Source: Acidobacteriaceae bacterium (GTDB lineage: Bacteria; Acidobacteriota; Terriglobia; Bryobacterales; Bryobacteraceae). Taken from it: DNA of 64,000 nucleotides. Made by a program: the position numbers and the translations under genes. The stretch spans positions 1 to 64,000 of the forward strand of contig JAFAMD010000055.1 of NCBI GenBank assembly GCA_019233755.1, read 5' to 3'. The notes under the pieces are model-generated. The model saw nothing but the letters and a program-made list of their open reading frames with translations. It did not search any database and was not told where the DNA came from. This document shows positions 43,606 through 47,344 of this stretch, one piece after another (within the stretch, counting starts at the first letter, position 1; the number at the start of each line of letters is the position of its first letter).

Positions 43606-43798
43606 AGTTTCCTGAAATCAGGGATACGATTTCTGCCCGCAATCATACACCGCCCTGCCGTGGGGAACGCGCTGCGACGCTTTTAGTGCTTCACGCGGTC
43701 AATGCCGGGCTTTCTCAATGGTACAATCGCCATGTTTGTTCTGAAATCGGAACAGCGCGTTTTTAAGAGCGACTCTCGAACAGATCGGGCGGCGGTAG

Positions 43799-43857: not shown

Positions 43858-44643
43858 ATGCAGGAGCCAGGTCGAAAGCTACGGCGTATACGGGAACGCC
43901 TCAGTCTGAAGTACCGCGACGTGGAGAATGCCAGCAACAAGATCGCACTTCATCGTGGCAACCCGGAGTTTGCAATTGGCTTGAGCCGCCTCGCGGATAT
44001 CGAGAATAAAGGAACGACGCCCTCGGTATACCGGATTTATTCACTTTGCGCCATATACGGAATTTCTTTCTCTTTGGTGCTCAGCTGGTACGGGGTAGAG
44101 GTGGATGCGTTGCCAGCCGATGCCGCGAAGATTTCCCTTAACCACACACGGCCCATTGACTTTGACACGGTACCTCCCGGGGTCCGTGTCACGGAAATGG
44201 CGGCTGACATAGACAACGATGTCGATCTGAAGCGCACAACCTGTTTGAGCCGGCAATCGCAACGGTGGGGAAAGTTGCCTCTCGGCCTGACTGCCTCGTT
44301 GGAACGCCGATATCGCTATGCGGTCATCGGCCAGGAAGACTGGTCTATGTATCCGTTGCTTCCGCCGGGTTCGTTTGTGCAGATCGACGAAACGAAGCGG
44401 CACATCGCCACGGCCGGCTGGCAGCATGAGTATGAACGCCCTATTTACTTCATTGAGCACCGTGCAGGATACCGCTGCGGTTGGTGCACTGAAATAGGCG
44501 GCTTTCTTCTGGTGCAGACGCACGCAGCGTCACATGTACCACCGGAGATCTTTCGCTACCCGGGTGAGGCCGATGTTATTGGCCAGGTTGTTGGAGTTAC
44601 TATGCGTTTGGATCTGGGGAAGCGACGCCATACACGTTCTTGA
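43858..44643 (+). CDS. HTH (XRE) regulator with S24/LexA-like C-terminal domain
   Basis: A 261-residue putative regulator. Residues 1-80 form an XRE helix-turn-helix (RKLRRIRERLSLKYRDVENAS). The rest resembles a LexA/S24 peptidase-like beta domain: the EDWSMYPLLPPGSFVQID stretch is the typical G-x-S-M-x-P-x-I serine box with ED-W-S-M-Y-P. The Lys of the catalytic dyad is not clearly identified, so self-cleavage is uncertain. A 252-base upstream gap holds a perfect palindrome CTCGTACGAG (43799-43808), a plausible operator. Its 3' end overlaps the unrelated convergent gene by 44 bases. Confidence 0.78.
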   Translation: MQEPGRKLRRIRERLSLKYRDVENASNKIALHRGNPEFAIGLSRLADIENKGTTPSVYRIYSLCAIYGISFSLVLSWYGVEVDALPADAAKISLNHTRPIDFDTVPPGVRVTEMAADIDNDVDLKRTTCLSRQSQRWGKLPLGLTASLERRYRYAVIGQEDWSMYPLLPPGSFVQIDETKRHIATAGWQHEYERPIYFIEHRAGYRCGWCTEIGGFLLVQTHAASHVPPEIFRYPGEADVIGQVVGVTMRLDLGKRRHTRS

Positions 44644-45055
44644 GCAGACCGAGAATGGCTTCGAAATCGGAGACATGTTTCTGGCGCTCAGGGCCTTGAA
44701 TCGCACCAGGAACGAGGTTTTTGTATGGAGTCAACCGCAGCCATGCATCAATCAGTTCGGCCCGGTCCACCTGATCGATACTTGCGATGTACAGCTCCAG
44801 GTCGGCCTTCTTACGTTCCAGCGGAAAACTGACCCAGTCCTTAAAAATTGTCTCGTGCATGCGCTTGATTGCGTGACTCACCGCGACCGAGTTAGAGGAG
44901 CTGCTCGACAAAGCATAGTGCTCGTATCTGCCGGTATCGGGATTACGTAGACTCGCAAGATAAACCAAGCGGCCATATGCGGTTTGGATTTGCGCAAGAT
45001 CTCTCATCCATAGTTCTGGGATGGTCTCCTGCTGCCTGGTTGGAACCCGCATCAT
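44600..45055 (-). CDS. Hypothetical protein, acidic, no known domain
   Basis: A protein of about 151 residues from ATG 45055, with a weaker TTG at 45073. It is soluble, with no signal or TM. The conserved-looking parts are IQTAYGRLVYLASLRNPDTG and ISHAIKRM-like VSHAIKRMHETIFKDW, followed by FPLERKKADLELYIASI. I do not recognise the family. The Tyr/Trp and Lys/Asp pattern gives an impression of a small helical domain. It is convergent with the HTH/S24 gene, overlapping it by 44 bases at the 3' ends. Confidence 0.6.
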   Translation of the reverse strand: MMRVPTRQQETIPELWMRDLAQIQTAYGRLVYLASLRNPDTGRYEHYALSSSSSNSVAVSHAIKRMHETIFKDWVSFPLERKKADLELYIASIDQVDRAELIDAWLRLTPYKNLVPGAIQGPERQKHVSDFEAILGLLKNVYGVASPDPNA

Positions 45056-45236
45056 TTGTGACTTTAAGTCCAATGATACACGGATAAATGGCCTTCACAA
45101 GGTACCGGAGTACTGGTAGGACTACCCCGTTCTGTTCACGGAAAACAACCTTGAGGCGGAAATTCCGTAGAAACTACTGGGCTATCGTACGTTCAGAAGT
45201 ACTAAAAATCAACTGGGAAAAAACAAAATAAACCAT

Positions 45237-45734
45237 ATGAAGGTCAGTCTTATAACCGGAATTCTCTCGCTTTCTTTGGCGGGCAGCATGCTTGCCAAGA
45301 AGTTTGAGCCACCTATTCCGGAGCCGGGCAACCCTTATCCGCCTGTCATGGCCAAGTTCGAGCCGCCGATTCCCGAGCCGGGCAACCCTTATCCGCCGAC
45401 CATGGCCAAGTTTGAGCCACCTATTCCGGAGCCGGGCAACCCTTATCCTCCGACCATGGCCAAGTTCGAACCGCCGATTCCCGAACCAGGCAACCCTTAT
45501 CCGCCGACCATGGCCAAGTTCGAACCGCCCATCCCCGAGCCGGGCAACCCTTATCCTCCGACCATGGCCAAGTTCGAACCGCCGATTCCCGAGCCAGGCA
45601 ACCCTTATCCGCCGACCATGGCCAAGTTCGAACCGCCGATTCCCGAGCCGGGCAACCCTTATCCTCCGACCATGGCCAAGTTCGAACCGCCGATTCCTGA
45701 ACCAGGCAACCCTTATCCGCCCGTGGTCGCATAA
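45237..45734 (+). CDS. Secreted protein of eight identical-type 18-residue repeats
   Basis: A 165-residue protein with a signal peptide (MKVSLITGILSLSLAGSMLA). All the rest is eight tandem copies of KFEPPIPEPGNPYPPTMA (the first ends PPVMA, the last PPVVA). Each unit has seven Pro, two Glu and one Lys, Asn and Tyr. The whole mature chain is repeat, with no other domain. Such Pro-rich regular repeats usually form extended, polyproline-II-like spacers; a wall, matrix or surface linker is possible. No partner gene is recognisable. Promoter and ribosome site are not obvious in the 163-base gap before it, which is AT-rich near the start (AAAAACAAAATAAACC). Confidence 0.75.
   Translation: MKVSLITGILSLSLAGSMLAKKFEPPIPEPGNPYPPVMAKFEPPIPEPGNPYPPTMAKFEPPIPEPGNPYPPTMAKFEPPIPEPGNPYPPTMAKFEPPIPEPGNPYPPTMAKFEPPIPEPGNPYPPTMAKFEPPIPEPGNPYPPTMAKFEPPIPEPGNPYPPVVA
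45300..45731 (+). repeat. Tandem 54-base repeat array, eight units, inside the secreted repeat protein
   Basis: Eight in-frame 54-base units, 432 bases in all, ending at the stop codon. Units alternate in silent changes: from unit 3 on, odd units carry CCGGGC and TATCCT, and even units carry CCAGGC and TATCCG. The current array therefore seems to have grown by duplication of a 108-base pair of units. Protein sequence is kept nearly constant while codons vary, which suggests selection on the peptide. Confidence 0.95.
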
Positions 45735-45871
45735 GGGCTGTCTTACGTCCGTCCCGCAATCCTTCTGACGACTCAGTGGACAAATCGGGGCTTCGGCGCA
45801 CCTTGGACTAATTGCGTTGATGTAAATCGCGGTTTTGCAGTACCATCCAAGAGAAGCCGATTAAGCGACGA

Positions 45872-46666
45872 ATGAATCTGACTCGTGCCATCCAACTGTT
45901 AAGCGAGTCGTTAACGATAGTCTTAATCTTTCGAATTTTCTTTCTTCGCTTACACAGTGTTTATCGTGTTTTCTCCATGTTCCTGTGTTTCGAGGTCCTT
46001 TCCACCTCGATAATGTTCCTTGAAGCGGCTCTACATGACAAGTTTTTCGATTACCGGATCACATGGATCCTCTTTAAAGTAATCGCGTGGGTTCTGTCGC
46101 TGTGGATGGTTTATGCCCTCCTGAGGGCAACGCTTGCTAATCTGCCTGGCATCCTGAGGCTCTCCCAAAAGATCTTAAATATCGTTTTCCCTTTAGCAGC
46201 CGTGGCTGCGATTCTAACGATTCAGCCGGAATACGCTGCTTCCGGACTCTCTTCTGCGGTCGATCCGATTGACCGGGCCGTACTCGTCGTCCTCGTTATG
46301 GATCGTTCGATCTCGACGGTAGCCCTGCTTGCGCTTCTGGCGATGCTCGTCTTCATTCTCTGGTTCCCGGTTCAGATGCCGCGCAACCTGGCCGTGTTTA
46401 GCGTTGGCTTTGTCGCATACTTTGCCAGCAAAACGATGCTCTTACTGCTGCACAGCTTCTTCGCGCATCAACTGCTGCATGCCATTAGCAACGCAATCTC
46501 GTTGATCCTCGTTGCCTGCTTCACTTATTGGCTTGTCTTCCTTAATGCCGAGGGGGAACGGGCCCCGGTACGAATCGGGCATAGCTGGCGGTCGGCTGAG
46601 CAAACCCGGCTGATTGAGCAACTTGAAGCAATGAATACCGCCCTGCTTCGGTCAGCGCGGCGGTAG
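45872..46666 (+). CDS. Multi-pass membrane protein of unknown function
   Basis: A 264-residue protein with about six or seven TM segments (for example LTIVLIFRIFFL, VLSLWMVYALL, ILNIVFPLAAVAAIL and VALLALLAMLVFILW). The C-terminal tail (RIGHSWRSAEQTRLIEQL) is short, charged and helical, probably cytoplasmic. No family was recognised. It is flanked by the repeat protein and another small membrane protein on the same strand, 138 and 150 bases away, so shared regulation is uncertain. Confidence 0.6.
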   Translation: MNLTRAIQLLSESLTIVLIFRIFFLRLHSVYRVFSMFLCFEVLSTSIMFLEAALHDKFFDYRITWILFKVIAWVLSLWMVYALLRATLANLPGILRLSQKILNIVFPLAAVAAILTIQPEYAASGLSSAVDPIDRAVLVVLVMDRSISTVALLALLAMLVFILWFPVQMPRNLAVFSVGFVAYFASKTMLLLLHSFFAHQLLHAISNAISLILVACFTYWLVFLNAEGERAPVRIGHSWRSAEQTRLIEQLEAMNTALLRSARR

Positions 46667-46816: not shown

Positions 46817-47344
46817 TTGAATCCCGCGCTGGTTCTGACTCCACTTCTGTTGTTCGGACTTGGCCTCTTATTTGTGCTTCCTATCCTTTTAAAGCTCCTC
46901 AAAACCTGTAAGGTTGAGGAGATTTCGGCAGATTGGCTGGAAAACTTTTCCTGCTCTTCCTATCACGCGATGGAAGGGCTTCTTAGCGACGAGGATTTCG
47001 ATTTTCTGTCCCGGCAGCCTGGCTTCGATCTTTCGCTTTACAGGAAACTGCGTCGTGACCGCTTAAACATATTCAAGCAGTACCTGAACCGGTTGATCGT
47101 TGACTTCAACCGCCTTCATGCCGCTGCCCGGTTTTTGCTGGCCCAATCGAGCGAGGATCACTCCGAACTCGTCACCCGGCTCCTCTGGCTGAAAGTTCGA
47201 TTCTCTATCGCCGTGGTCGAGGCCCAATTCAGCTATGGATTGTGCTGTCTCGGATTCCGCTGCCTGGCGGTGAAGTCCGCGATCCGGCATCTTGAAGAGA
47301 TGAGCGCGCAACTCTCGGCGATCCCTGCCGCTCACGCTGCGTAG
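46817..47344 (+). CDS. Small membrane-anchored protein of unknown function
   Basis: A 175-residue protein starting at TTG 46817, with GGAGAG (46806-46811) five bases upstream deciding the start. One N-terminal TM (ALVLTPLLLFGLGLLFVLPILLKLL) is followed by a soluble helical domain with several Leu/Phe/Arg repeats (DRLNIFKQYLNRLIVDFNRL). I recognise no domain. It is convergent with the SprT-like gene, with 28 bases between stops. Confidence 0.6.
   Translation: MNPALVLTPLLLFGLGLLFVLPILLKLLKTCKVEEISADWLENFSCSSYHAMEGLLSDEDFDFLSRQPGFDLSLYRKLRRDRLNIFKQYLNRLIVDFNRLHAAARFLLAQSSEDHSELVTRLLWLKVRFSIAVVEAQFSYGLCCLGFRCLAVKSAIRHLEEMSAQLSAIPAAHAA

Follow-up and report, generated by a model that had tools for sequence, protein, structure and literature searches.

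A tandem-repeat secreted protein as the multi-copy variant, in a single species, of a short peptide gene kept beside an XRE-type regulator in soil Acidobacteria

At positions 45237..45734 (plus strand) of the window, by which we mean the whole stretch of 64,000 nucleotides analysed here, lies an ORF that is the multi-copy variant, in a single species, of a short peptide gene that soil Acidobacteria retain next to the same regulator gene. Bryobacteraceae (Acidobacteriota) conserve this gene, which encodes a short Sec-secreted peptide, and in the window it is amplified as units within the ORF. It is probably under the control of the adjoining regulator, and its product possibly serves as a cell-to-cell signal; to this explanation in full we give about even weight. 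At the level of sequence, the comparison of loci establishes a family of ORFs at a fixed place, its amplification by two routes, and a palindrome common to the predicted promoters of the peptide and regulator genes.

The ORF encodes a putative multi-copy peptide precursor of 165 residues from an ATG start. Its first 20 residues, MKVSLITGILSLSLAGSMLA (45237..45296, plus strand), form a Sec-type signal peptide as judged by a hydrophobic-stretch rule rather than a dedicated cleavage-site predictor, and one extra lysine (SMLA-K-KFEPP) separates them from eight in-frame 54-nt units of 18 residues each (45300..45731, plus strand), delineated by repeat finding and translation. Tandem Repeats Finder assigned this array a period of 54, 7.8 copies, 0 indels and a score of 669, making it by far the strongest tandem repeat of the window. 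Units 2–7 are identical in protein sequence (KFEPPIPEPGNPYPPTMA), and units 1 and 8 end in VMA and VVA, respectively. The conserved unit has the core P-P-x-P-x-P-x-x-P-Y-P-P and a net charge of −1. The earlier note had described a secreted protein consisting of a signal peptide and nothing but eight 18-residue repeats; translation and repeat finding confirmed this architecture, and the protein had no sequence match in Pfam, NCBIfam or the PDB. Its observation that the protein is more constant than its codons also held, with pS of 0.423 and pN of 0.031 across the eight units (ratio 0.07) and 13 of the 16 variable columns at third codon positions. The low pN/pS and the third-position variation indicate that the protein unit has been kept by selection, and recent unit-to-unit exchange may contribute. 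The source genome holds a single copy of the repeat gene. Two long ORFs overlying the array (45292-45768, plus strand; 45421-45801, minus strand) show no sign of being genes and arise because the stop-free 54-nt repeat is also open in other frames. An orphan repeat or assembly artefact was ruled out by the homologues, the intact frame and the codon-diverged units, and a phage origin by the lack of any match among phages or in viral contigs.

A protein search of 200 family genomes retrieved three clear relatives, all congeneric with the window species; every one has an 18-residue unit of its own, built on a common core P-P-x-P-x-P-x-S-P-Y-P-P; weak matches outside the genus from this search were excluded from the evidence, and a contig scan with the repeat protein as the query found no relative. 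With the regulator as bait, the locus was recovered in 16 of the 17 genomes of the genus. The genus comparison set comprised the window and 16 other loci, and all 17 carry a secreted Pro-rich ORF in the same gap. The unit number varies from 1 to 9 and the unit sequence differs from species to species, as exemplified by AFPPLPNPKSPYPPMM (5 units), FDGPLPDPNSPNPPYA (9 units), SDPAWPHPGSPNPPVTLK (4 units) and the single copy QDSAWPEPGNPRPPYDK. The search for homologues with other repeat numbers, suggested in the earlier note, was thus successful, and since homologues with a conserved repeat exist, an objection from their lack fails. Seven relatives gave nothing significant against Pfam and NCBIfam. 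The gene order among the genus loci is pheA, the XRE regulator, a minus-strand helical protein, the peptide gene, a seven-transmembrane-helix (7TM) protein, orf175 and SprT, except at the ends of contigs or fetched stretches. The conserved orf175 (46817-47344, plus strand), which lies 3' of the 7TM gene in most genus loci, has no Pfam family.

Beyond the genus, named relatives belong to Bryobacteraceae, Bryobacterales and Solibacteraceae, with some labelled Acidobacteriaceae, within the class Terriglobia; the matching loci suggest that the window comes from the same family. There, the ORF is usually a miniprotein of 34–56 residues, such as MKKLFLMLFLALQFTVVANLSLANDPEPRCFPCPQADAR, and the usual Bryobacteraceae peptide ends in P-x-P-x-C-x-P-C...Arg. 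A set of 64 peptides from outside the genus, encoded by single genes or gene tandems, includes 52 with P-x-C-x-P-C and 48 whose last residue is Arg or Lys (Arg in 42); the charge of their last 16 residues averages −0.17, reaching +2 or more in only five. By hand reading, 104 of 110 orthologous Bryobacteraceae loci carry a secreted peptide ORF. The family set comprised 113 loci after duplicate removal, each extending at least 700 nt beyond the anchor, and the automatic caller found a peptide in 102; hand reading removed two false calls (L234 and L243), added L185, L247, L249 and L255, and left out L233–L235, which are regulator paralogues on a long branch. A single rule applied to a fixed 700-nt gap identified an ORF in 101 of the 110 loci on the coding strand, none on the opposite strand and two in shuffled DNA. 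Signal peptides were called from hydropathy instead of with a trained predictor, and the counts do not represent independent events because the loci are related by descent. Six of the 110 loci (L131, L134, L167, L177, L189 and L243) keep the regulator and have no peptide; an operator-like sequence is still found in the gap of L177 (16.8 bits) and L189 (22.5 bits). Among 19 non-redundant loci from other families of the class, the automatic rule placed a Pro-rich secreted ORF after the regulator in 11; the one at L282 is apparently a false call.

Copy number has increased by two recurrent routes, namely more units within one ORF and more whole genes in tandem. Arrays of Cys-bearing units (ILPVPDCWPC..., ILPIPKCYPC...) reach about nine units, and whole-gene tandems reach five genes. 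In the two largest tandems (L180 and L196), the five peptide genes are near-identical, and four or five of the copies encode the same mature part. Of the 103 scored loci, 64 have a single copy, 29 an array of units and 10 an array of genes, and the amplified versus single state requires at least 18 changes on the regulator tree, with L255 entered as peptide-less in that count. Such repeated amplification by two routes fits selection for dose. In the cultivated isolate KBS 96 (L150/L069), a run of N lies inside the peptide array, where the repeat itself probably left a gap in the assembly.

A palindromic operator-like element, GTTCTGTTCACGGAAAACAA (45129..45148, plus strand), lies 108 nt before the peptide ATG, and a second near-perfect copy, GTTCTGAAATCGGAAC (43738..43753), is found upstream of the regulator gene. 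Alignment on the peptide ATG gave the palindrome consensus GTTCYGawttyCRGAAaAC at −97 to −146 in 50 of 50 loci. Scores of at least 14 bits marked a putative operator in all 50 training loci and, when these are counted in, in 89 of the 100 loci for which a peptide had been called; the matrix was built on the same 50 loci that were first scored, and the shuffles were single-base. The near-perfect palindrome upstream of the regulator gene, present in 97 of 109 loci, consists of sites outside the matrix training. A −10-like hexamer, TATCGT (45183..45188, plus strand), lies 34 nt past the operator 20-mer in the window, and in 15 of 16 genus loci a −10-like box TATCKTA follows the operator by 34–36 nt, with a chance expectation of about 0.001 per locus. 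On this spacing, the centre of the operator would fall some 60 nt ahead of the predicted transcription start, which is a usual position for an activator. A wide regulon was rejected because sites elsewhere in the source genome are at control level: the 16-mer had only nine matches, two of them at the window locus, compared with eight control matches.

The presumed binder of both palindromes is the XRE-type helix-turn-helix regulator with an extra C-terminal domain (43858..44643, plus strand), since it is linked to them and has the palindrome at its own promoter. A Pfam scan of 10 regulator members detected the HTH only, with no TPR at an E-value of 0.1, and the C-terminal domain matched nothing. 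The regulator family is present in 106 of 200 genomes of the class. Three genomes from another family of the class (G284, G356 and G386) carry five to six regulator paralogues each, and a four-unit Pro-rich array adjoins one such paralogue (L288). An all-helical protein of an unassigned family (44600..45073, minus strand) is encoded divergently to the peptide gene, with an overlap onto the 3' end of the regulator gene, and was found in 123 of 150 family genomes; its confident model had no fold match (best E-value 0.67). Directly downstream of the peptide gene lies the 7TM protein, also of an unassigned family (45872..46666, plus strand), for which AF2 gave a confident model (pLDDT 91.8) with seven helices crossing the membrane and a further one at the C-terminus. 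Among solved structures, rhodopsins and GPCRs come closest to it, possibly reflecting only a generic bundle, with a best Foldseek E-value of 0.033 and a VIA Z of 11.9, below the tool's caution level of about 13 for helical bundles. In hand-corrected counts, 92 loci have both the 7TM and peptide genes, none the 7TM gene alone, 12 the peptide gene alone and six neither gene. The end of a contig or stretch is close to some of the 12 peptide-only loci. A 7TM gene was found somewhere in 12 of 13 genomes searched, several of which had been picked as lacking it at the locus. Among nine relocated 7TM genes examined, the operator was near none and a secreted Pro/Cys ORF near one, and G388 has two peptide genes with no 7TM gene detected. 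Because 7TM genes occur elsewhere, mostly without a peptide, the 7TM protein is only a candidate receptor. One relocated 7TM gene (L302, G392:C208) lies far from the XRE locus and 184 nt downstream of a secreted 37-aa ORF ending in APPPCCPPICKK, perhaps constituting an independent peptide/7TM pair.

We consider it very probable, taking the steps jointly, that the XRE protein would bind both palindromes, control its own gene and activate the promoter of the peptide gene from a position some 60 nt ahead of the transcription start, that the precursor would be exported and its leader cut off, and that the short Pro-rich core would act outside the cytoplasm, with repeats providing a higher dose. 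The system has a pheromone-type look: the peptide is secreted, has a short conserved core and a species-specific sequence, is amplified in dose along independent routes, is tightly controlled by what is presumed to be an autoregulator, and is linked to a membrane protein. That the peptide is a self-produced, species-specific, pheromone-like signal falls a little short of an even chance in our judgement; it might be read at the envelope, with the linked 7TM protein as the candidate, or by the regulator after re-import. It would be improbable that the whole circuit runs from an autoregulated XRE protein through a species-specific secreted peptide, amplified as in alpha-factor precursors, to a linked seven-helix receptor of GPCR-like topology. 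The earlier note was right to list a peptide precursor among its options, whereas the release it proposed at a Met-Ala-Lys boundary was not supported. A single Lys stands at every unit joint of the window array, and Lys precedes each unit in L050 as well, but the junction is not conserved: the linkers of L049, L051, L055 and L059 contain neither Lys nor Arg. We therefore dropped conserved Lys cleavage between units, and the window and genus linkers revealed no conserved protease site at the unit joints.

Within the signalling explanation, the peptide could be re-imported and read in the cytoplasm by the XRE protein, as in RRNPPA systems, making the 7TM protein irrelevant. The mature pheromone of RRNPPA systems has 5–10 residues and re-enters through an oligopeptide permease. 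No other parts of the locus are as constant as the regulator, peptide gene and palindromes, 12 of 104 peptide loci have no nearby 7TM gene, and RRNPPA propeptides adjoin their receptor, use Sec and carry one to four copies (PMC11343458). In the 10 scanned regulator members, however, the scan showed no TPR domain and the phylum differs from that of RRNPPA, and we regard re-import as unlikely, at about one chance in five. Outside signalling, the protein might be a structural or matrix filler, an intact, disordered, Pro-rich chain spacing or coating the envelope, as the wall or matrix spacer of the earlier note implied. An acidic Pro-rich composition without any domain and as many as nine units suit such a role. 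In the majority of homologues, however, there is only one short peptide, roughly 15 residues long once mature, and this weakens the case. One short copy in 64 of 103 scored loci, relatives with a CxPC core and a C-terminal Arg, no visible anchor signal, and what appears to be tight operator control all argue against a filler, and we rate it as rather improbable.

The species-to-species sequence variation, gene amplification and linked membrane protein would suit a bacteriocin-like or otherwise antimicrobial role in which the 7TM protein confers immunity. Such peptides are, however, hardly expected with the charge distribution given above and −1 for the window unit, and the gene is retained vertically across most of the family rather than sporadically and at times has no 7TM gene nearby; we rate this possibility as low as that of the filler. 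Slightly less probable still is a periplasmic metal-binding or redox peptide acting through the CxPC pair. The frequent P-x-C-x-P-C motif outside the genus favours it, but the window array and several relatives are Cys-free and yet retain the cassette and the operator-like element.

In the open-access library searched, we found no description of this cassette, nor of any peptide signal of Acidobacteriota. Acidobacteriota are among the commonest soil bacteria. The locus offers a conserved secreted peptide gene, a defined predicted operator, a candidate regulator, natural copy-number variants and two candidate partner proteins (helical and 7TM) without Pfam families, which makes peptide communication in Acidobacteriota directly testable.

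Several known systems resemble parts of the cassette. Insect proline-rich antimicrobial precursors of the apidaecin type also carry short Pro-rich units in tandem, whereas the present units range from neutral to acidic instead of being cationic. Fungal Kex2 repeat proteins and alpha-factor-type precursors share a signal peptide followed by tandem near-identical short cores (PMC7329392, PMC6339444, PMC9769878). They differ in that dibasic sites are absent here, where the joints have a single Lys in the window and no basic residue in the four relatives above, and in that the cassette is bacterial and dominated by single-copy relatives. The RRNPPA systems of Bacillota, in which one Sec-exported precursor beside the receptor can hold one to four pheromone copies, resemble the cassette in their small precursor (Sec export here resting on the hydropathy rule) adjoining an HTH regulator, in the C-terminal mature part and in the repeated copies of some members (PMC11343458). 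In contrast, the cassette is hosted by Acidobacteriota, has a palindrome common to both predicted promoters, and encodes a Pro-rich peptide, with CxPC in most, in up to nine units or in whole-gene tandems; because no TPR domain was found in its regulator, we do not class it as RRNPPA. In outline, the RRNPPA propeptide is nevertheless the closest worked-out analogue of the peptide gene described here.
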